Source of the DNA: Candidatus Rokuibacteriota bacterium
Lineage (GTDB): Bacteria > Methylomirabilota > Methylomirabilia > Rokubacteriales > CSP1-6
DNA length: 64,000 nt
Assembly (NCBI GenBank): GCA_003220535.1
Contig: QHSU01000066.1
Span: 62,001-126,000 of the forward strand
Reading direction: 5' to 3'
Positions 11,857 to 38,691 of the stretch are shown here, piece after piece. How positions within the stretch are numbered: the stretch's first letter is position 1; every line of letters starts with the position of its first letter. A program made the position numbers and the translations under genes. The notes beneath the pieces were generated by a model. The model did not search any database. It had not been told where the DNA came from and was given only the letters and a program-made list of their open reading frames with translations.

Positions 11857-12001
11857 CGGGCGGCGGGGCGGAGGCTGGCGGGGCGCCCACCGCGCCCCGT
11901 GTAGTCAGGCTCGTCTGCATGCAATGCGAACGGCTCGCCGTCACGCCCCGAGTGCCGTCGGGGCGCGGTGGGCGCCCCGCCAGCCTCCGCCCCGCCGCCC
12001 G
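11857..12001. repeat. 42-bp perfect inverted repeat, palindromic element A
   Basis: Left arm 11857-11898 and right arm 11960-12001 are exact reverse complements over 42 bases, separated by 61 bases. Arms begin CGGGCGGCGGGGCGGAGG. The element fills most of the gap between the stop of the aldehyde dehydrogenase gene (12010) and the start of the cytochrome gene (11809), both on the minus strand. No U-run follows, so a simple intrinsic terminator is not supported. Confidence 0.9.
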
Positions 12002-12009
12002 GCTCCCGC

Positions 12010-13455
12010 CTACGAGAGATCGACCCAGACGGATTTCGTCTCCGTATAGTGCTCGAGACCCGCCGACCCCATTTCGCGACCAAACCCCGATTCCTTGAAC
12101 CCACCGAACGGCAGCGCCGCGTCGAAGAGGTTGTAGGCGTTGACCCACACCGTGCCGGCCCGGATCGCGCGCGCCGCCTTGAGCGCCTTCGCGACGTCGC
12201 GCGTCCACACGGCGGCGGCGAGCCCGTAGGTCGTCGCGTTGCCCTCGGCGATCCCGTCGTCGATGGACTTGAACGGGATCACGGAGAGGACGGGGCCGAA
12301 GATCTCCTCGCGGGCGATCTTCATTCGATTGGTGACGCCGTCGAAGATCGTGGGCTCGACGAAGTAGCCCTTGCCCGAGCCGACGTTCGCGCGGCCGCCA
12401 CCCGCGACGAGCCGGGCACCTTCCTTCTTGCCCGCGTCGATGTAGCCGAGCACCGTCTCCATCTGCTGTTTCGACACGACGGGCCCCATGCGCGTCGCCT
12501 TGTCCATCGGGTCGCCGACCTTGAGGCCCTTGACGCGCTCGGTGAGCTTCGACACGAACTCGTCGTGGATCTTGTCCTCGAGGAACAGGCGCGAGCCGGC
12601 GGCGCAGACCTCGCCTTTGTTGTAGAAGATGCCGGTGAGCGCGCCCTTCACCGCCGCCTCCATGTCGGCGTCGGCGAAGACGATATTCGGCGACTTGCCC
12701 CCGAGCTCGAGCGACAGCCGCTTGAGCGTGCCCGCGGCCTCGCGCATGATCCCCTTGCCCACTTCGGTCGAGCCCGTGAAGGCGATCTTGTCGACGCGCG
12801 GGTCGCGCACCATCGCCATCCCGACCTGCCCGCCGGGGCCGGTCACGACGTTGAACACGCCCTCGGGCAGGCCCGCTTCCTGGGTGAGCTCGGCGAACTT
12901 GAGCGCGGTGAGCGGCGTCAGCGACGCGGGCTTGAGCACGACCGTGTTGCCGGCGGCCAGCGCCGGGGCGATCTTCCACGACGAGAGCAGGAACGGGAAG
13001 TTCCAGGGCACGATCGCGCCGACCACGCCGAGGGGCTGGCGCAGGGTGAAGGTGAACGCGTTCTCGCGCAGGCCGAGCGTCTCACCGTGGATCTTGGTGG
13101 CCCAGCCCGCGTAGTACCGGAAGACCTCCGCGGCGAACGGGATCTCGACCTTCCCGGAGTCGAAGAGCGTCTTGCCCGTGTTCAGGCTCTCGAGCCGGGC
13201 CATCTCGTCGAGGTTCTGCATGATCAGGTCGCCGAGCTTCCACACGATCCGCCCGCGGTCGGCCGCGCTCATCCGCGGCCACGGACCCGAGTCGAACGCC
13301 TTACGGGCCGCCGCGACGGCGAGCTCGACGTCGCGCTCGTCGCCGCGGCCGACCTGCGCGCTCGCCTCCTCGGTTGCAGGGTTGATCGTGGCGTACGTGG
13401 CGCCCGAGACCGGCGGACGCCAGCTCCCGGCGATGAAAAGCTGTTCGGTGTTCAT
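12010..13455 (-). CDS. NAD(P)-dependent aldehyde dehydrogenase
   Basis: A 481-residue soluble aldehyde dehydrogenase oxidising an aldehyde to its acid. The cofactor-site segment VGAIVPWNFPFLLSSWKIAPAL, the catalytic-base segment LSLELGGKSPNIVF and the nucleophile segment NKGEVCAAGSRLFLED are intact, as is the C-terminal PFGGFKESGFGREMG. Length and motif order match the betaine/phenylacetaldehyde-type group, but the substrate cannot be assigned. Upstream and on the same strand is the glycosyltransferase gene, 19 bp away. Confidence 0.93.
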   Translation of the reverse strand: MNTEQLFIAGSWRPPVSGATYATINPATEEASAQVGRGDERDVELAVAAARKAFDSGPWPRMSAADRGRIVWKLGDLIMQNLDEMARLESLNTGKTLFDSGKVEIPFAAEVFRYYAGWATKIHGETLGLRENAFTFTLRQPLGVVGAIVPWNFPFLLSSWKIAPALAAGNTVVLKPASLTPLTALKFAELTQEAGLPEGVFNVVTGPGGQVGMAMVRDPRVDKIAFTGSTEVGKGIMREAAGTLKRLSLELGGKSPNIVFADADMEAAVKGALTGIFYNKGEVCAAGSRLFLEDKIHDEFVSKLTERVKGLKVGDPMDKATRMGPVVSKQQMETVLGYIDAGKKEGARLVAGGGRANVGSGKGYFVEPTIFDGVTNRMKIAREEIFGPVLSVIPFKSIDDGIAEGNATTYGLAAAVWTRDVAKALKAARAIRAGTVWVNAYNLFDAALPFGGFKESGFGREMGSAGLEHYTETKSVWVDLS

Positions 13456-19561: not shown

Positions 19562-19793
19562 CTTCTTTCTCACGGGTTCCGTTGGGGGGAGGCGGACGGG
19601 TGGCGCGGCGGGTCCCGGGGGTATGCAATCGGCTCCGTCACCCACTCGCCCGAATCGCAGCTCTTCGAGCTGCGGACGGGACGAGGGGGAACATGCGTGA
19701 TCCAAGCCTGAAGTGCTCGAGTGCCACCCGACCGATTCCGCTGCTCGCGCGAAGTGAGCCGCGCTCTGAGTGCCGTGGCCGGTTCACACGCAG
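19562..19793. other. Intergenic region with the inverted copy of the ligD palindrome core
   Basis: A 232-base gap between typA and the amidohydrolase. It contains a 60-base stretch (19630-19689) identical to the centre of the ligD-embedded palindrome. Short open frames here lack family resemblance and I do not call a gene. Confidence 0.7.
19630..19689 (+). repeat. 60-bp dispersed repeat, copy 1 (intergenic)
   Basis: Exact over 60 bases with the reverse complement of 34660-34719. It begins CGGCTCCGTCACCCACTCG and ends GACGAGGGGG. Inside, CGCAGCTC-TTC-GAGCTGCG (19657-19675) forms an 8-bp perfect stem with a 3-base loop. The long flanking arms seen at the ligD copy are absent here. Confidence 0.92.
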
Positions 19794-21403
19794 ATGATTT
19801 TGACCAACGGTCGGATTTACACGATCGAGGCTCGGAATCGCGTCGTCGACACGATCGTCGTGCGGGAGGGGCGCGTGGCGTTCGTCGGGCGTCGTGCGGA
19901 CGTCAATGCGCCGGCGGCGGAGGAGGTGGTCGATCTCGAGGGGCGGGCGGTGTTGCCGGGGCTCGTCGATGCTCATGGGCACTTGATGTATCTGGCGCGG
20001 GCACGGCTGACGCTCGACGCGGGTGGCGCGCGATCCGAGGCCGAGGTCGCCGAGCGCGTCGCCGCGCGGGCGGCCACGCTGCCCCGGGGCGAGTGGCTCG
20101 GCGGGCGCGGCTGGGACCAGAACCGGTGGCCGGACCGCCAGTGGCCGACGAAGACCTCGCTCGACCGCGCGGCGCCCCATCATCCGGTCGCGCTCACGCG
20201 AATCGACGGTCACGCGACGTGGGCGAACTCTGCGGCGCTCGCCGCTGCCGGGATCGACCGCGCGACGGCCGAGTCGGGCGGCGGTCGGATCCTGAAGGAC
20301 GCGCGGGGTGAGCCGACCGCGTGCTCATCGACACGGCCCAGCAGCTGCTTCAGCGCGCCGAGCCACGGCCCTCCTCCGAGCGCTTCGACCAGGCTGTCGA
20401 AGAGGCGATCGGCGAGTGCCTCGCCGCGGGGCTGACCGGGATCCACGAGATGGGCGTCGAGCTCTACGTCCTCGCTTCCTATCGCCGACTGGTCGAGCGC
20501 GGCCGGTTCCCCTTCCGGAACTACGCGGCGATCGCCGCGCGCTCGGCGACGACGTGGACCCACTACCGCGAGCAGGGCCCCGAGGCGATCGGCGACGCGC
20601 GCGTCGTGGTACGCGCCCTCAAGCTGATGGCCGACGGCGCTCTCGGCTCGCGGGGCGCGGCGCTCCACGATTCGTACTGCGACGATCCGGGTAATGCGGG
20701 GCTCGTCCTCATGCCGCCCGAGGAGATCACGCGCCTGACGCTCGAGGCGGCCGCGCGCGGCTTCCAGGTCTGCGTCCACGCGATCGGCGACCGTGCCAAC
20801 ACGCTGACGCTCGACGCGCTCGAGGCTGCGCTCGAGCGTGCCCCGTGGCCGGACCATCGCTTCCGCGTTGAGCACGCCCAGGTCCTGACCGAGCGCGACA
20901 TTCCCCGCTTCCACCGGCTGGGCGCGCTGCCGAGCATGCAGGCGACCCACTGCACGTCCGACATGGAGTGGGCGGCCGAGCGGCTCGGCCCGGAGCGGCT
21001 CCAGGGGGCCTACGCGTGGCGCTCGCTGCTCGCCACCGGTGTCGTCATCGCTGGCGGCTCGGACTTTCCCGTCGAGAGCCCGAGCCCGTTCCACGGCATC
21101 TACGCGGCGGTCGCGCGGCGCCCGCGAAGCGGCGAGGATCGCGGCTGGCAGCCGGAGCAGCGGATGACGCGCGAGGAAGCGGTGCGCTCCTTCACCGCCT
21201 GGAATGCCTACGCCTCGCGCCAGGAAGCGCTGCTCGGCTCGCTCGAGCCCGGCAAGCACGCCGATCTCGTCGTGCTCTCGGACGACGTGTTCACCTGCCC
21301 CGAGTCGCGCATCCCGGACATCACTCCCGTTCTCACTCTGGTCGCCGGCGAGATCGTCTTCCGTCGCCCCGCGTCTGGCGTTCAGCCGGGGGTGCGGGAG
21401 TAG
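19794..21403 (+). pseudogene. YtcJ-like amidohydrolase, single-base frameshift
   Basis: A metal-dependent amidohydrolase of the YtcJ (Amidohydro_3) family, about 535 residues if repaired. The first part (MILTNGRIYTIEARNRVVDT, VLPGLVDAHGHLMYL, GRGWDQNRW, RIDGHATWANSAAL) reads in one frame to about 20318. The rest (VLIDTAQQLLQR, KLMADGALGSRGAALHDSY, VCVHAIGDRANTLTLDALE, RVEHAQVL, GGSDFPVESPSP) reads in the next. Restoring one G at ACC(G)GCGTG, about 20318-20320, joins them as GEPTGVLIDTA. Either an assembly indel or a real recent lesion. The C-terminus and stop lie inside the left arm of an inverted repeat. Start could also be the GTG at 19770. Confidence 0.85.
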
Positions 21404-21532
21404 GGGTCCCGGGACCACGCGGCACGCGTCCGCTGCTCCTGGGCGGCTGGGCTCCATCCGGGCCCGCAACGTCCGTCGCCGCTTGACGGGAACGGGTCCC
21501 GCAACCCTACCCCCACACCCCCGGCTGAACGC
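21378..21532. repeat. Imperfect inverted repeat of about 38 bp, palindromic element B
   Basis: Left arm 21378-21416 and right arm 21495-21532 are near-complementary, with a few mismatches and one indel. Both arms share GCGTTCAGCCGGGGGTG in inverted orientation, and the spacer is 78 bases. The left arm encodes the last residues and stop codon of the amidohydrolase. The element lies between convergent genes, so it could terminate transcription from both sides, but its size and design resemble elements A and C. Confidence 0.8.
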
Positions 21533-32448: not shown

Positions 32449-33609
32449 ATGAACGACCACTTCGACCGGATCATGAAAGTCGCCGAGCGGCCGTCCCCCG
32501 TGATGGTCAAGGGGGCGGGGTCGTGGCTCTGGGACCGCGACGGCAAGCGCTATCTGGACTTCGTCCAGGGCTGGGCCGTGAATTGTCTCGGCCACTCGCC
32601 GCGCGTCGTGCTCGACGCGCTCCTCGCTCAAGGCGCCGAGCTGATCAACTGCAGTCCCGCGTACTACAACGAGCCGATGGCGAAGCTGGCGGTCCTCCTC
32701 GCCGAGGCGTCGGGGCTCGACCAGGTCTTCCTCTGCAACAGCGGCGCCGAGGCGAACGAGGGCGCGATCAAGCTGGCGCGCAAGTGGGGGGCCCGACATC
32801 GCGATGGCTCCTTCGAGATCATCACCATGCACGGGAGCTTTCACGGGCGCACCCTGGCGACGATGGCCGCCTCGGGCAAGCCCGGATGGGACGAGCTGTT
32901 CGCGCCCAGAGTCCCCGGGTTTCGGAAAGTCCCGCTAGGCGATCTCGACGCCGTCGCCGACGCCATCACCCCCCGCACGGTCGCCGTGATGCTCGAGCCG
33001 ATTCAGGGTGAAGCCGGTGTCTTCGTAGCCGCCGACGACTACCTGCGCGCGCTGCGGGCGCTGACGGAGGAGCGCGGCGTCCTCCTCATCGCCGACGAGA
33101 TCCAGACGGGCATCGGGCGGACCGGCCGCTTCCTCGGCTGCCAGCACGCGGGAATCGCGCCCGACATCGTCACGCTCGGCAAGGGCCTCGGCGGCGGGGT
33201 TCCGCTCGCGGCGCTCGTGGCCGCCGGCCGCGTCAGCTGCTTCGAATACGGTGACCAGGGCGGCACCTTCAACGGCAACCCGCTCATGGCCGCCGTCGGC
33301 TGCGCGGTGGTCGCGACGGTCCAGCAGGAGGAATTTCTGCGCGGGGTCGTCTCGAACGGCGCCTACCTGACACACGGGCTCGAGACTCTCGCCGGCGAGC
33401 GCGGCCACGGCGAGGTGCGCGGCCGGGGGTTGCTGCAGGCTCTCGAGCTCCAAGGGCAGGACGCGAAGAAGGTCGCGACCGCCGCGCTCGATCATGGACT
33501 TCTGATCAACGCCCCTCGGCCGGACACGCTCCGCTTCATGCCGGCGCTCACCGTCTCTCGAGACGAGATCGACCAGATGATCAGGCGCCTCACGGCGAGC
33601 CTCTCCTAG
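32449..33609 (+). CDS. ArgD-type class III aminotransferase
   Basis: A 386-residue PLP enzyme of the acetylornithine/ornithine aminotransferase group. It has VFLCNSGAEANEGAIKLARK, MHGSFHGRTLATMAASG (cofactor stacking), VMLEPIQGEAGVF, LLIADEIQTGIGRTG and the Schiff-base Lys in DIVTLGKGLGGGVPLAAL. The ATG at 32449 is preceded by GAGGAGG and gives the usual N-terminus; a GTG at 32380 would add an unlikely leader. Its role could be arginine synthesis or another omega-amino transfer; no other arg genes are nearby. Confidence 0.88.
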   Translation: MNDHFDRIMKVAERPSPVMVKGAGSWLWDRDGKRYLDFVQGWAVNCLGHSPRVVLDALLAQGAELINCSPAYYNEPMAKLAVLLAEASGLDQVFLCNSGAEANEGAIKLARKWGARHRDGSFEIITMHGSFHGRTLATMAASGKPGWDELFAPRVPGFRKVPLGDLDAVADAITPRTVAVMLEPIQGEAGVFVAADDYLRALRALTEERGVLLIADEIQTGIGRTGRFLGCQHAGIAPDIVTLGKGLGGGVPLAALVAAGRVSCFEYGDQGGTFNGNPLMAAVGCAVVATVQQEEFLRGVVSNGAYLTHGLETLAGERGHGEVRGRGLLQALELQGQDAKKVATAALDHGLLINAPRPDTLRFMPALTVSRDEIDQMIRRLTASLS

Positions 33610-36341
33610 CGGCGCCCGGAAGGATCGCGTTCAGCGGCCGGGGCGGCACGGCGCTCGAGCTTCCGGAGGGCGGCCGCGACGTCGATGCGCCCCCTGAGCA
33701 CCGGTGCGAGCGGGTCGCCGACCTTCTCGAAGCGCGCCGGCGCCGTCTTGATCGTGAAGCGCGCGGGATCGAGCCCGGCGGTGACGTCCTCCCAGCCGAG
33801 CGGGCACGAGACCGGCGCCCCCGGCAGCGGGCGCGCCGAGAAAGGCGCGACAATCGTCTGCCCCCGGCCGTTCTGGCCGAAGTCGATGTAGACCTTGCCG
33901 CCACGTGAGCGCAGCGGCCTCGCGATCGTCGAGATCTGAGGCTCCGCCTCGACCCCCATCACCGCGAGGAGCCGCGCGAAGGTGCGCGTCACCTCGTAGT
34001 CATAACCGGCGCCGAGCGGGAGGAGGATGTGGAGGCCGGTTGCCCCGGAGGTCTTCACGTAGCTCGGCACCGCGAGCTCGTCCAGGATTCGGTGGAGCGC
34101 CTGCGCGACCTTGACCACGTCCGTGAACGGCGCGCCCTTGGGATCGAGGTCGAGGACGAGCCAGTCCGGATGATCGAGTGACGCCAGCCGCGAGCTCCAG
34201 AGATGCAGGGGGATCGTTCCGAGGTTCACGACGTAGCGCAGGCTCTCGCGGTCGTCCACGATGAAGTAGTCGATGTCGCGTCCGACGTCGTGCGAATGGA
34301 TGCGCGCGGCGGTCCTTACCCACGACGGAATCCATTCGGGCGCGTCCTTCTGGAAGAAGGACTTCCCCTTGATCCCATCGGGATACCGCGTGAGCACGAG
34401 CGGCCGATCCTTCAAGTACGGCAGGAGCCACGGCGAGACTGAATCGTAGTACTCGATCAGGTCCGACTTCGTATATCCCTCATCCGGCCAGAACACCTTC
34501 CTCGGATTCGTAATCGTCACGCGCCGCTCATCCACCCCCCCAGCGCCTTCGGCCGCAGTCGTGGAGCGCCGAGAGGCCGGCTCCCGATCGCCAGCGCCAC
34601 CGCGAGGGCGAGGGGCCGAGGCCGGGGCCGGCGGGGGGGACGCGACCGGCGTAGTGGGACCCCCTCGTCCCGTCCGCAGCTCGAAGAGCTGCGATTCGGG
34701 CGAGTGGGTGACGGAGCCGGTCGCGTCCCCCCCGCCGGCCCCGGCCTCGGCCCCTCGCCCTCGCGCCACCCCGGGAGTCTCGCGCACGCAATCCTCAGGG
34801 CGCTTGTCGTCGCGCAACCCGAGGAAAGCCGGGTGACGGATGCCGCCGTCGCGTGTCCACTCGGTGAAGCGAACTTCGCAGACCAACCTGGGCTCGACCC
34901 AATGGTGGCCGCGCCCGCCGGGCGTGCCGCGCACGAAGGGCGAGGTCGGGCGCGTCAACGGGCGGAGCTTCTCGCTGATGAGCTTGAGCGCCCGGTCATC
35001 GAAGCCCGTGCCGACCTTGGAGATGTAGACGAGCTGGCCGTGCTCGTAGAGACCCAGGTGCAGCGCGCCGAAGTGGGCGCGCGTCCCCTGAGGCACCGTG
35101 TAGCCGCCGATCACGAACTCTTGCCGGAGCTGACACTTGATCTTGAGCCAGTCCTTCGAGCGCTTCGCGGCATACGAACTGTCGCGCCTCTTGGCGATCA
35201 CGCCTTCCAGACGCTGCTCGCACGCGGCGGCGAGGAACTCGGCGCCGTGGCCGACGACGTGGTCGCCGTAGTGGACGACGCCGCGCGCCGGCAACAGGAG
35301 CTTCAAGCATTCCTTGCGCGCCTCGAGCGGCAGCCGGCGCAGATCGCGGCCGTCGAGCCCGAGCGCATCGAAGAAGACGGCGCTGACCGGCACCTCCGCC
35401 CGCCCCCGCTCGATATCGGCCGCGCGCGTGAGGCCCATCCGTTCCTGGAGTCGCTGGAAGCTCGAGCGGCCCTGGTCGTCAAGCGCGACGATCTCGCCGT
35501 CGAGCAGGAAGTGCGAGAGCGGCAGCGCGCGCAGGGCCGCCGTCACCTCGGGGTACCTGGCGGTGACGACCTGGCCGCTCCGCCCGCGAAGCTCGACCGC
35601 GTCATCGGCGCGGGAGGCGAGGACGCGGACGCCGTCGTACTTGATCTCGAAGAGCCACGCCGGATCCGAGGGCGCCTCGTCGACGAGCGTCGCGAGCATC
35701 AGGAGCTCCCCGTGCGGCGCGATCTCGGCACGCGGCGCCCTGAGCTCGGCCAGGCGCCGGCGCAGCGTCTCGACCCGGCTCGGGCCATCGCGCAGCTCTT
35801 CCACCGTCAGGCCCGAGAGCACCGACTCGGGGAAGCGCTCGATCGGCTCCGCCTCGCCGGCGTACGCGTCGGCTTTCTTCAGGAGCAGCCACTCGCGGTC
35901 CTTGCCGCTCATGCGGGCGAGCGTCCAGCGCCCACGCAGCTTGAAGCCGAACAGCTCGAACTCGAGCTTCCCGCGCTCGAGCTGGTCGCGCACGGGCTCC
36001 GGCTTCACGAGCCGGAACCGTCCGGTGTCCCACACGATCGACGGCCCCGCGCCATAGTTCCCCTCGGGAATCACGCCCTCGAAGTCGGCGTACTCGATGG
36101 GATGGTCCTCGACGTGCACGGCCAGCCGCTTTTCGTGGGAGCGTACCGAGGGGCCCTTGGGCACGGCCCAGCTCTTCAGCACGCCGTCGATCTCCAGGCG
36201 CAGATCGTAGTGGAGCCGTCGCGCGGAGTGCTTGTGGACGACGAAGCGGCTGCCGCCGGGCTGGCCGGCACCGCCGAACGGCTCCGGCGTCGCCGCCGGA
36301 TCGCGCTTCCTTCGATACTCCTGCAGATCGCGGCTAGCCAC
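33606..36341 (-). CDS. ligD: Multidomain NHEJ DNA ligase D carrying an in-frame palindromic insert
   Basis: A 911-residue end-joining enzyme with domains in the order phosphoesterase, ligase, polymerase. The 3'-phosphoesterase is at about residues 10-160 (FVVHKHSARRLHYDLRLEID). The ATP-dependent ligase runs from about 200 to 520 with catalytic Lys234 in FEIKYDGVRV and EGVIAKRRDSSYAAKRSKDW. The primase-polymerase domain runs from about 605 to the end (TITNPRKVFWPDEGYTKSDL, DHPDWLVLDLDPKG with the metal Asp pair). The linker between ligase and polymerase, residues about 526-581, is encoded entirely by a 49-bp inverted repeat element that keeps the frame open. Ku is encoded 1.5 kb away on the other strand. 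The 5' end overlaps the 3' end of the CPBP gene by 8 bp. Confidence 0.95.
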   Translation of the reverse strand: MASRDLQEYRRKRDPAATPEPFGGAGQPGGSRFVVHKHSARRLHYDLRLEIDGVLKSWAVPKGPSVRSHEKRLAVHVEDHPIEYADFEGVIPEGNYGAGPSIVWDTGRFRLVKPEPVRDQLERGKLEFELFGFKLRGRWTLARMSGKDREWLLLKKADAYAGEAEPIERFPESVLSGLTVEELRDGPSRVETLRRRLAELRAPRAEIAPHGELLMLATLVDEAPSDPAWLFEIKYDGVRVLASRADDAVELRGRSGQVVTARYPEVTAALRALPLSHFLLDGEIVALDDQGRSSFQRLQERMGLTRAADIERGRAEVPVSAVFFDALGLDGRDLRRLPLEARKECLKLLLPARGVVHYGDHVVGHGAEFLAAACEQRLEGVIAKRRDSSYAAKRSKDWLKIKCQLRQEFVIGGYTVPQGTRAHFGALHLGLYEHGQLVYISKVGTGFDDRALKLISEKLRPLTRPTSPFVRGTPGGRGHHWVEPRLVCEVRFTEWTRDGGIRHPAFLGLRDDKRPEDCVRETPGVARGRGAEAGAGGGDATGSVTHSPESQLFELRTGRGGPTTPVASPPPAPASAPRPRGGAGDREPASRRSTTAAEGAGGVDERRVTITNPRKVFWPDEGYTKSDLIEYYDSVSPWLLPYLKDRPLVLTRYPDGIKGKSFFQKDAPEWIPSWVRTAARIHSHDVGRDIDYFIVDDRESLRYVVNLGTIPLHLWSSRLASLDHPDWLVLDLDPKGAPFTDVVKVAQALHRILDELAVPSYVKTSGATGLHILLPLGAGYDYEVTRTFARLLAVMGVEAEPQISTIARPLRSRGGKVYIDFGQNGRGQTIVAPFSARPLPGAPVSCPLGWEDVTAGLDPARFTIKTAPARFEKVGDPLAPVLRGRIDVAAALRKLERRAAPAAERDPSGRR
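34601..34765 (-). repeat. 49-bp perfect inverted repeat inside ligD, palindromic element C
   Basis: Arms 34601-34649 and 34717-34765 are exact reverse complements over 49 bases; the spacer is 67 bases. The whole 165-bp unit is a multiple of three and has no stop in the ligD frame. It encodes a mirrored low-complexity peptide: RGRGAEAGAGGGDA from one arm, SPPPAPASAPRPR from the other, and SQLFELRTGRG from the middle. The 60-base core 34660-34719 recurs exactly at 19630-19689. Confidence 0.93.
34660..34719 (-). repeat. 60-bp dispersed repeat, copy 2 (within ligD)
   Basis: Reverse complement of 19630-19689 over 60 bases without mismatch. It holds the 8-bp hairpin CGCAGCTC-GAA-GAGCTGCG as read on the plus strand and reaches 3 bases into the right arm of the larger palindrome. 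Confidence 0.92.
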
Positions 36342-37773
36342 GCAGCACCAGGAGCACGGACAGCGAGGCCATGAGGTTGTCCACCGCGTGCGCCGCCATC
36401 GACGGGAGCAGGCTGCCGGTCCGATCGTACGCCCACGCCCACAGGAGCCCGCTCCAGAAGACCGCGGCGAAGCCGAGGACTCCGTAACCGTGGGCGACGG
36501 CGAAGATCGCCGCGCTCAGCACCGCCGCCACGCTCGTGCCGAAGTGCCGGCGAAGGGTCGCGAACAAGAGTCCGCGGAACACGATCTCCTCGAACACCGG
36601 CGTGAGGACGACCGTGTCGAAGAGCGTCAGCCCGACCAAGGCCGGCGGCCCCCAGACCAGATCGCGATCGAACCACTCGGTCCAGTGTGTGGTCAGCCCG
36701 AGCCACCGTCCCGCGATGTCGATCACGCTCTCGCCGAGCTGGCCCACGGCCAGCAGCGTGAGGAGGACGAGCCCGAGCCGCCGGCCCCCACCGGGCGCCG
36801 GCACCAGCCCGAAGCTCTCGCCGAAGCGCAACCCCGACGGCCGGAGCAGACGGCGATGGGCGAGGATCAGCAACGGAACGAAGGCGAGGTTCGTCGCGGT
36901 GCCGATCATCACTCGGGCGAATGGGCGCTCGGGACCGACGGAGGAATAGAGATAGAGGAGAACGACCGTGATCGCGCCGAGCGCTCCGCCCCGAATCAGG
37001 ACGACCACGCCGTCGCGGCCCCGCCAGGGCGGCGGGAGGACGGCGGCCCCGATGCGCGCCAGGGCGCCACGCCGCACGACCAGCCGAACGATGACCAGGA
37101 GCCCCACGCCCAGCATCGCCAGCTGGAGCGTCAACATCGCGCGCATGCGCACCAGCAGCCGACTCGACCGGGCGGCCTGCGCTGCGGTCGCGACGGCCAG
37201 TAGCTGGGTGTCCCCGCTGCGGGTCGCCAGGCGCGCGGCGATCCGGTCCCTGAACCACCCGGCCTCGACCGCGTCGGCAAGCGCCTCATCGAAGGCCGTT
37301 GCGCCGTCCGCGTCGAGCTCTTCGTCGAGATAGGCGCCGGCGACGAGGCGCGCAAACGCGGGCAGTGGGTCGGGTCGGCGATCCCACTCCTCCGTCCGAC
37401 GCCGCAAGTTGTCCAGGCGCCCGGCTTCGCCTTCGAGGATCGCCAGATGCAGATCGACGGCGGGATCGAAGGACGCGCCGGCGAGCTCCTCGTACCAGCG
37501 AATCGCCTCCTCGAGATCCTCCACGGGCTCGGTCGACATCACGCGGTAGACGAACCGCTCCCACGCGGGGGCGCGGGCGACGGCCTCGTCGATGTCCATG
37601 GTCCGTCCCACGATCAACGCGAGCGCGCGCTCGGGCTCCTCCATCCCGTCCACGCGCGAGCCGCCGTACTGGAGCCAGGCCATCGTCGCCAGGAAGGCGA
37701 CGAGGACGAGCGCCGCCAGGGCGGTCAGGACCCCGACATGTTGCCGCTCGACGGGTGTTTGAACGCTATCCAT
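36334..37773 (-). CDS. CPBP-family intramembrane metalloprotease with N-terminal extension
   Basis: A 479-residue membrane protein. After one helix (about 15-35) comes a long soluble region of about 170 residues rich in charged helices (ERFVYRVMSTEPVEDLEEAI, TAFDEALADAVEAGWFRDRI). The C-terminal part has about seven helices and the CPBP/Rce1 motifs TPVFEEIVFRGLLFATLRRH (near residue 395), FAVAHGYG and MAAHAVDNLMAS. The family contains membrane proteases and bacteriocin-immunity proteins. The soluble N-terminal part is not standard. Start at the ATG at 37773; an ATG at 37797 is possible. Lies between ligD and ku. Confidence 0.85.
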   Translation of the reverse strand: MDSVQTPVERQHVGVLTALAALVLVAFLATMAWLQYGGSRVDGMEEPERALALIVGRTMDIDEAVARAPAWERFVYRVMSTEPVEDLEEAIRWYEELAGASFDPAVDLHLAILEGEAGRLDNLRRRTEEWDRRPDPLPAFARLVAGAYLDEELDADGATAFDEALADAVEAGWFRDRIAARLATRSGDTQLLAVATAAQAARSSRLLVRMRAMLTLQLAMLGVGLLVIVRLVVRRGALARIGAAVLPPPWRGRDGVVVLIRGGALGAITVVLLYLYSSVGPERPFARVMIGTATNLAFVPLLILAHRRLLRPSGLRFGESFGLVPAPGGGRRLGLVLLTLLAVGQLGESVIDIAGRWLGLTTHWTEWFDRDLVWGPPALVGLTLFDTVVLTPVFEEIVFRGLLFATLRRHFGTSVAAVLSAAIFAVAHGYGVLGFAAVFWSGLLWAWAYDRTGSLLPSMAAHAVDNLMASLSVLLVLRG

Positions 37774-37827
37774 GGGACAGGTCAGGCCTTCGCGCATCAT
37801 AGGGACCATCGTGCTATCGTGCAAACC

Positions 37828-38691
37828 ATGGCGCCGCACTCGATCGGCTCCGGGACCATCTCCTTCGGGCTGGTCTCCATCCCGGTCCGGCTCTACACCG
37901 CCGCGTCCTCGGCGAGCGTGTCCTTCAATCTCCTGCACGCGAAGTGCGGCTCGCGGATCAAGCAGCAGACGTTCTGCCCCGTGTGCAACGAGGTCGTCGA
38001 CCGCGCGTCCCTCGTTCGTGGCTACGAGTTCGCGAAAGACCAGTACGTGCGGGTGACCGACGACGAGCTCAAGGCCCTCGAGGGCGAGGCCTCGAAGGTG
38101 ATCGACATCGCGGAGTTCGTGCCGCTCGAGTCGGTCGATCCGATCTATTTCGAGAAGGCCTATTACCTCGGGCCCGACAAGGGCGGCGACAAGGCGTACC
38201 GGCTCCTCGCCGACGCCATGGAGAAGCAGGGCCGCGTGGCCCTCGCCAAGTTCGTCATGCGCGGCAAGGAGAGCCTCGTGCTCATCCGGCCCGCCCAGGG
38301 CGGCCTCATGCTCCACACGATGTACTTCGCCGACGAGGTGCGCGACTTCGGCGAGATCGACCGCGGGCAGTCGGCGAAGATCAAGGCGGGTGAGCTCGAG
38401 CTGGCGCAGCAGCTCATCGACGGTCTCTCGAACGACGAGTTCAGCCCGGCGCAGTATCAGGACGAGTATCGCCACCGCGTCCTCGACGTGGTGAACCAGA
38501 AGGTCGAGGGCAAGGAAGTCACCGCCGTCGGGCCGCAGGTCCAGCGCGCCCAGGTGATCGACCTGATGGAAGCCCTCAAGGAGAGCCTCGCCAAGCGCGT
38601 CGCCTCCGGCGAGAAAAGGCCCCTGGCGAAGGCCAAGCGCACGGAACCCGCCGCCCCGCCCGCGAAGCGAGCCCAAGCCGCGAAGAAGTAG
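37828..38691 (+). CDS. ku: Ku, DNA end-binding protein for NHEJ
   Basis: A 287-residue bacterial Ku that threads onto double-strand breaks and recruits LigD. The N-terminus GSGTISFGLVSIPVRLYTA and SFNLLHAKCGSRIKQQTFCP, the Cys pair in FCPVCNEVV, and YYLGPDKGGDKAYRLL are typical, and the tail is Lys/Ala-rich (KRPLAKAKRTEPAAPPAKRA) as in many bacterial Ku proteins. It runs divergently from the CPBP/ligD pair. Confidence 0.96.
   Translation: MAPHSIGSGTISFGLVSIPVRLYTAASSASVSFNLLHAKCGSRIKQQTFCPVCNEVVDRASLVRGYEFAKDQYVRVTDDELKALEGEASKVIDIAEFVPLESVDPIYFEKAYYLGPDKGGDKAYRLLADAMEKQGRVALAKFVMRGKESLVLIRPAQGGLMLHTMYFADEVRDFGEIDRGQSAKIKAGELELAQQLIDGLSNDEFSPAQYQDEYRHRVLDVVNQKVEGKEVTAVGPQVQRAQVIDLMEALKESLAKRVASGEKRPLAKAKRTEPAAPPAKRAQAAKK

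Follow-up and report, generated by a model that had tools for sequence, protein, structure and literature searches.

The window, the whole stretch of DNA that was analysed, is 64,000 nucleotides long and comes from a Candidatus Rokuibacteriota genome coded G000 here; G001 to G008 are relatives of the same genus and G011 and G012 belong to other genera. ORF and domain searches identified a ligD gene of 911 aa (phosphoesterase, ligase, polymerase) at 33606..36341 on the (-) strand. An inverted-repeat search located a palindrome inside this gene at 34601..34765, with arms at 34601..34650 and 34716..34765 that are 50 nt each and 100% complementary, separated by a 65 nt spacer. An earlier note on this DNA had described the same 165 bp as 49-bp arms with a spacer of 67, and the palindrome is real. 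Inverted repeats with a score of at least 18 numbered three in the window and zero in 10 order-2 Markov versions of it. Inverted-repeat and similarity searches assigned the whole element to what we call family A, on the (-) strand, which is the sense strand of ligD and is denoted A-. Its conserved core, core A, lies at 34649..34717 in (+) orientation, that of the core query, and its reverse strand is ligD sense. The ORF 33606-36341(-) is uninterrupted across the palindrome, as the note had maintained for the ligD frame, and the 165 bp are free of stops in all three frames of the ligD strand. The Pfam domains of LigD place the end of the ligase C-terminal domain (421-513) and the polymerase domain (624-877) on either side of the insert, and TIGR02778 begins at 608. 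Residues 526-581 are therefore inside the linker between ligase and polymerase, but the note's wording that they form the whole of this region was too strong, since the domains end at 513 and resume at 608 or 624. We propose that this linker would tolerate 55 extra codons. No terminal inverted repeat or CTAG was recognisable at the ligD copy, and a target-site duplication was not clear there.

Judged from sequence comparison, the 165 bp in ligD are a resident copy of a palindromic element dispersed in Rokubacteria. Used as a query, they gave 37 matches in their own genome, some of which are both strands of one place. Family A copies have a core of ~70 nt in common and differ in their arms. A covariance model of core A, built from 43 copies, detected it in 25 of the 95 genomes of the phylum (E<=1e-6) and at 28 places in G000 and 22 in G006. 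In G060, the scoring of 67 candidates gave at least 66 places. When an exact core A pattern was searched for in 84,980 species, all 16 matching stretches were from Candidatus Rokuibacteriota; records of the window's own genome were possibly left out. The exact pattern had no match in viral contigs, and spread by viruses was set aside on this narrow test. Weak core A matches were also seen beyond the order, in G083, G085 and G034 (family f7, same class).

The core search of the window revealed a second family A core at 19632..19690 (-), which is intergenic and lacks symmetric arms. An unrelated core, core B, was found first in ligD of relatives and occurs also in the window, in a family B palindrome at 21378..21532 (+) that was located by inverted-repeat and core searches and overlaps the end of gene 20321-21403(+). 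Core B is present in 24 of the 60 genomes of the order and at 45 places in G000. A third palindrome of the window, at 11857-12001, has arms of 43 nt, a spacer of 59 and a different core, C, and lies 8 nt past the stop of gene 12010-13455(-). With this core as the query, the window copy was the sole match in 998,349 bases; a palindrome at L115:2699-2865 looks akin to it by eye (AGTCAG.CTCG). In 859,958 bases, there were 40 inverted repeats with a score of at least 16, compared with one in a single shuffled set, and by our own count 30 of the 40 contain core A or B. These bases comprise the window and 40 further stretches from G000 and G006, of which many were picked for holding matches. At L036:1001-1386 and at L060:1001-1426, two A copies lie close to each other and point in opposite directions.

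Between related species A copies are gained and lost, at CTAG close to stop codons and in some cases within genes. The copy at G000:C147:24461-24716 is absent from all five aligned relatives, and two of these, G001 and G003, show a CTAG at that position. At the C104 site, G000 carries an A element, G008 a B element and the other seven of the eight relatives are empty. The C21 copy is absent in 5/7 relatives, and related remains are present in the other two. A radical SAM gene of G000 contains an in-frame copy that adds 40-43 residues and is absent in 7/7 relatives; the linker there measures 56 residues, against 13-16 in these relatives. In a POR/DUF6537 gene of G000, the stretch bearing the copy has 86 residues. 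It has 44-71 in seven relatives, so its length varies regardless of the copy. All 49 A cores examined are stop-free in every A- frame and none (0/49) is stop-free in every A+ frame, and A- is the sense strand in the 7/7 A copies called inside genes. Four of these seven are ligD, and one (C107) has no arms and is doubtful. The palindromes could in principle be assembly artefacts of metagenome contigs, as the genomes are drafts (G000 consists of 162 contigs with 8.15% contamination) and long palindromes assemble poorly. We give this explanation almost no credence, because elements of the same kind occupy orthologous sites of other assemblies and occur in named public contigs, and the ligD linker is open through the palindrome in G001 to G007, seven of the eight relatives.

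The earlier note had likened the ligD palindrome to those that insert in frame in Rickettsia genes, a reading it would have given up if all close relatives shared the linker at the protein level with unrelated DNA or if no related genome contained another copy. Neither came true: further copies lie within and outside genes, and the insert is not universal among ligD orthologues, as G011 and G012 have neither core A nor B and the core is a different one in five of the eight relatives from the same genus. In the sections of the literature available to us, frequent in-frame palindromic insertion is described above all for Rickettsia, whose palindromic elements (RPE) are dispersed, 105-146 bp long, located within or between genes, and translated as in-frame fusions (PMC2229807, PMC10969869). 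The trait of in-frame palindromes in coding genes is met here by ligD and the radical SAM gene. The likeness is one of behavior, not of membership in the Rickettsia families, which are of another phylum and another sequence; the exact core pattern was found only in Candidatus Rokuibacteriota, without a direct alignment to RPE sequences. In addition, RPE arms are reported, in the part of the source we could consult, to lose identity over time (PMC6649704), whereas the Rokubacteria arms mostly stay symmetric. Core exchange is not described for RPE in the portions of the literature examined.

Intact A copies in a sister genus are MITE-like units of ~218 bp with CTAG and an inverted repeat at their ends. 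In G060, both inverted-repeat ends were present in 20 of 29 A copies, which measured 187-219 bp (mostly 214-219). Among these 20 intact copies, 12 have CTAG at both ends, and in 15 an end lies no more than 6 nt from a called stop codon. The end pattern, allowing up to 2 mismatches, occurs at 92+77 places in G060 and at 0 places when read backwards. The intact copies are alike over their full length (mean pairwise identity 0.83, n=20), and the idea that the arms were made afresh at each insertion was rejected on this ground. Copying of arms from the host flanks at insertion was likewise rejected, since the empty C104 sites show nothing arm-like by eye. Most A copies in the genus of the window lack the terminal repeats, with both of them retained in the C147 copy; we presume that the repeats would be lost after insertion. 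A 142-bp unit at L129:10666-10807 (G000:C91) has A-type ends without a core A by sequence and may be regarded as a shorter MITE. Family B copies in G064 and G021 have apparent inverted ends at CTAG, the sequence of which is unlike that of the A ends by eye.

A candidate partner for the A elements was found in G003, where 1532 bp between matching ends (L245), which differ from the query at 3 and 2 positions, encode an IS1380-family transposase with 262.7 bits against a cut-off of 180. We infer that a transposase of this type would move A elements in trans. Its family, PF13701, was detected in only 3/8 genomes searched and was absent from G060, G021, G064, G061 and G006, so that no IS1380-family partner was found in G060, the genome richest in A copies. 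A scan of four PF13701 loci for A-type ends was positive for one, and the PF13701 locus of G000 has no such ends. An IS630-type partner was rejected: PF13358 is present in 3/6 genomes, but no matching ends were found at the scanned loci L251, L252 and L253. As with MITEs, there are terminal inverted repeats (the 20/29 copies of G060), a duplicated target, CTAG, along with empty sites, no transposase and a candidate partner IS in the genus; unlike MITEs, the Rokubacteria element has a conserved core that is unpaired and sits between arms of changing sequence. The main text of a 2024 MITE review does not contain the term 'IS1380'. CTAG itself is rare in G000, with 179 occurrences in 644,000 bases versus 1859 expected from base composition, and TAG stop codons account for 60 of the 179. 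This would explain why a gene 3' end adjoins 43/45 intergenic A copies, a count in which orthologous copies were entered separately and genes were taken from an in-house codon-usage caller.

A position downstream of genes is also typical of REP elements, and the motif CGTC is invariant in core A. The element could then be a member of the CGTC or GTAG REP superfamily that moves with the help of a RAYT or on its own. According to the parts of the source at hand, REPs occur downstream of genes, sometimes inside repair genes including a DNA ligase, and form part of longer palindromes in three species (PMC3733652). The same source, as far as it was accessible, gives the CGTC-REP format as CGTC next to an 8-9 bp stem, the loop being 4-5 nt long and the tail CCA-like (PMC3733652). 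This format is not met by the predicted structure of core A as judged by eye: core A is longer and the stem beside its CGTC is not such a simple stem-loop. As the intact A copies moreover have IS-like ends, we consider membership in a REP superfamily highly improbable.

The arms differ between copies and between orthologues and yet are nearly perfectly Watson-Crick paired. In family A, 1533 of 1606 arm pairs are Watson-Crick (44 copies), with 20 G-U pairs on the sense and 24 on the antisense strand. The corresponding number for family B is 564 of 622 (16 copies), with 8 G-U pairs on the sense strand and 21 on the other. These counts exclude copies lacking arms of score 11 (8/52 A and 5/21 B), whose existence indicates that symmetry is not always kept. 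This exclusion and the choice of arms by symmetry inflate the Watson-Crick share but do not bias the G-U comparison. In both families the 5' arm is G-rich on either strand (G 0.51-0.60). The selection of an RNA stem would be expected to leave an excess of G-U pairs on the sense strand. Because there is none, we conclude that the symmetry is kept at the DNA level.

The covariation of the arms might instead reflect selection for a structured RNA that acts in the 3' part of transcripts, in termination, stability or binding. The covariation score is 0.355 versus 0.088 in shuffles, 27 columns are invariant in 43 core A copies, and the predicted fold is very stable (-174.5 kcal/mol, z -18.4). There is also a strand preference within 30 nt of gene 3' ends, where the sense strand is A- for 19 A copies and A+ for 5 (3 in both) and where B copies are in the preferred strand in 7 cases versus 1 (1 in both). 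A selected RNA is difficult to reconcile with the lack of a sense-strand G-U excess, with the takeover of the same site by an unrelated core, with copies inside coding sequence and with the absence of copies from many relatives. Nor is there an Rfam match in the window at gathering scores, and a known Rfam family was rejected as a candidate; matches with E up to 10 are all sub-threshold and are mostly to microRNA precursor models, plus Pxr, Xanthine riboswitch and PART1_3. We regard the RNA explanation as unlikely. We suggest instead that the arms keep changing and would be re-made complementary by template switching during replication (quasipalindrome correction). Template switching between inverted-repeat arms is a known homogenising process, documented in yeast in the portions of the reports available (PMC8604942, PMC8794818). 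Genes of Nematomorpha mitochondria similarly contain perfect inverted repeats whose sequence changes without loss of symmetry, according to the part of the source we could consult (PMC6649704). A dispersed conserved core of transposon-like form is not described for either system in these excerpts.

Cores resemble those of the same genome more than their orthologues, which means that they evolve in concert within a genome. The mean identity of core A is 0.919 within G000 (23 cores) and 0.895 within G006 (14 cores). Between the two genomes, the six orthologous pairs average 0.878 and the other pairs 0.882. Column 60 is T in 22/23 cores of G000 and C in 12/14 of G006 and differs in 6/6 orthologous pairs. 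The core in ligD of G000 matches another G000 core exactly, compared with an identity of 0.845 to the orthologous core of G006. These identities exclude cores of less than 61 nt, and the evidence for concerted evolution rests on the six orthologous pairs of two genomes.

At ligD, the core itself is not constant among species. G000, G003, G006 and G007 have core A and G001, G002, G004, G005 and G008 have core B. In G008 (L073), the gene is broken at its core B palindrome, with the 5' arm missing and the frame lost. Core B is read in frame 0 in all four unbroken copies. For core A the reading frame is 0 in G000 versus 2 in G003, G006 and G007, resulting in different peptides, and conservation for the protein sequence was rejected on this ground. 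The tree of the conserved parts of ligD groups G000 with G001 and G008, which makes two separate B-to-A changes the simplest history of the gene; the node on which this independence rests has a support of just 0.81. The stem ends coincide between A and B species. In the outer 17 nt of the stem, G000 (A) and G001 (B) are 0.82 identical and all A-B pairs 0.41-0.82, for which there is no matched background. In the inner 18 nt of the arms, identity is 0.67-0.89 within A and 0.61-0.83 within B, compared with 0.28-0.61 between A and B. At a second swap site, presumably ftsZ-lpxC, one A copy in G006 corresponds to three tandem B copies of ~181 bp in G000 (L138:4843-5348, G000:C60), and the outer arms are similar between the two. 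That related species hold core A or the unrelated core B at one spot suggests that the hairpins are mobile and interchangeable. We propose that the core with ~18 nt of inner arm would occasionally be replaced by a copy from another locus. Such replacement would explain both the concerted cores within a genome and the A/B change at ligD and one intergenic site.

A and B might also have been inserted independently at shared hot spots such as the CTAG of stop codons or existing hairpins, with no exchange of cores. The rarity of CTAG and its concentration at TAG stops would fit this, as would the C104 site, where separate hits would account for an A, a B and seven empty alleles. It remains a genuine if doubtful possibility, for ligD has no CTAG and its A and B stem ends coincide, the outer 17 nt of G000 and G001 are alike while their inner arms have no match, and the outer arms at the second swap site are similar as well. 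Our overall reading, which we consider probable, is that the elements are degenerate MITEs whose arms are homogenised by template switching and whose cores are replaced from elsewhere; the function of the core and the choice between exchange and insertion are unsettled. More tentatively, and with the odds somewhat against it, we envisage the stems as docking sites. A palindrome would persist through the lifetime of the genus while its core and ~18 nt of inner arm form a cassette overwritten from other loci, be it by its own kind, as in concerted evolution, or by an unrelated core, as in A for B. If true, short sequences could travel from one palindrome to another by hairpin-templated copying, without a transposase.

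Taken singly, there are precedents for in-frame palindromes, for REPs in repair genes or within palindromes, and for arm homogenisation. The open-access literature, preprints excluded, yielded no description of such elements in Rokubacteria and no precedent for a stem in which cores are interchangeable. What goes beyond the earlier note is the second core, the MITE form, the changing yet symmetric arms and the concerted cores. The setting is an uncultured, GC-rich soil phylum. As it offers a MITE form, a candidate partner IS, and empty and orthologous sites to compare, old questions become testable: how perfect palindromes endure within genes, whether template switching by itself suffices for symmetry, and whether cores are exchanged between loci. 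At ligD, the element alters the linker of a double-strand-break repair enzyme from one species to the next. The ORF adjoining ligD in the window, 37447-38691(+), has a translation that looks Ku-like.
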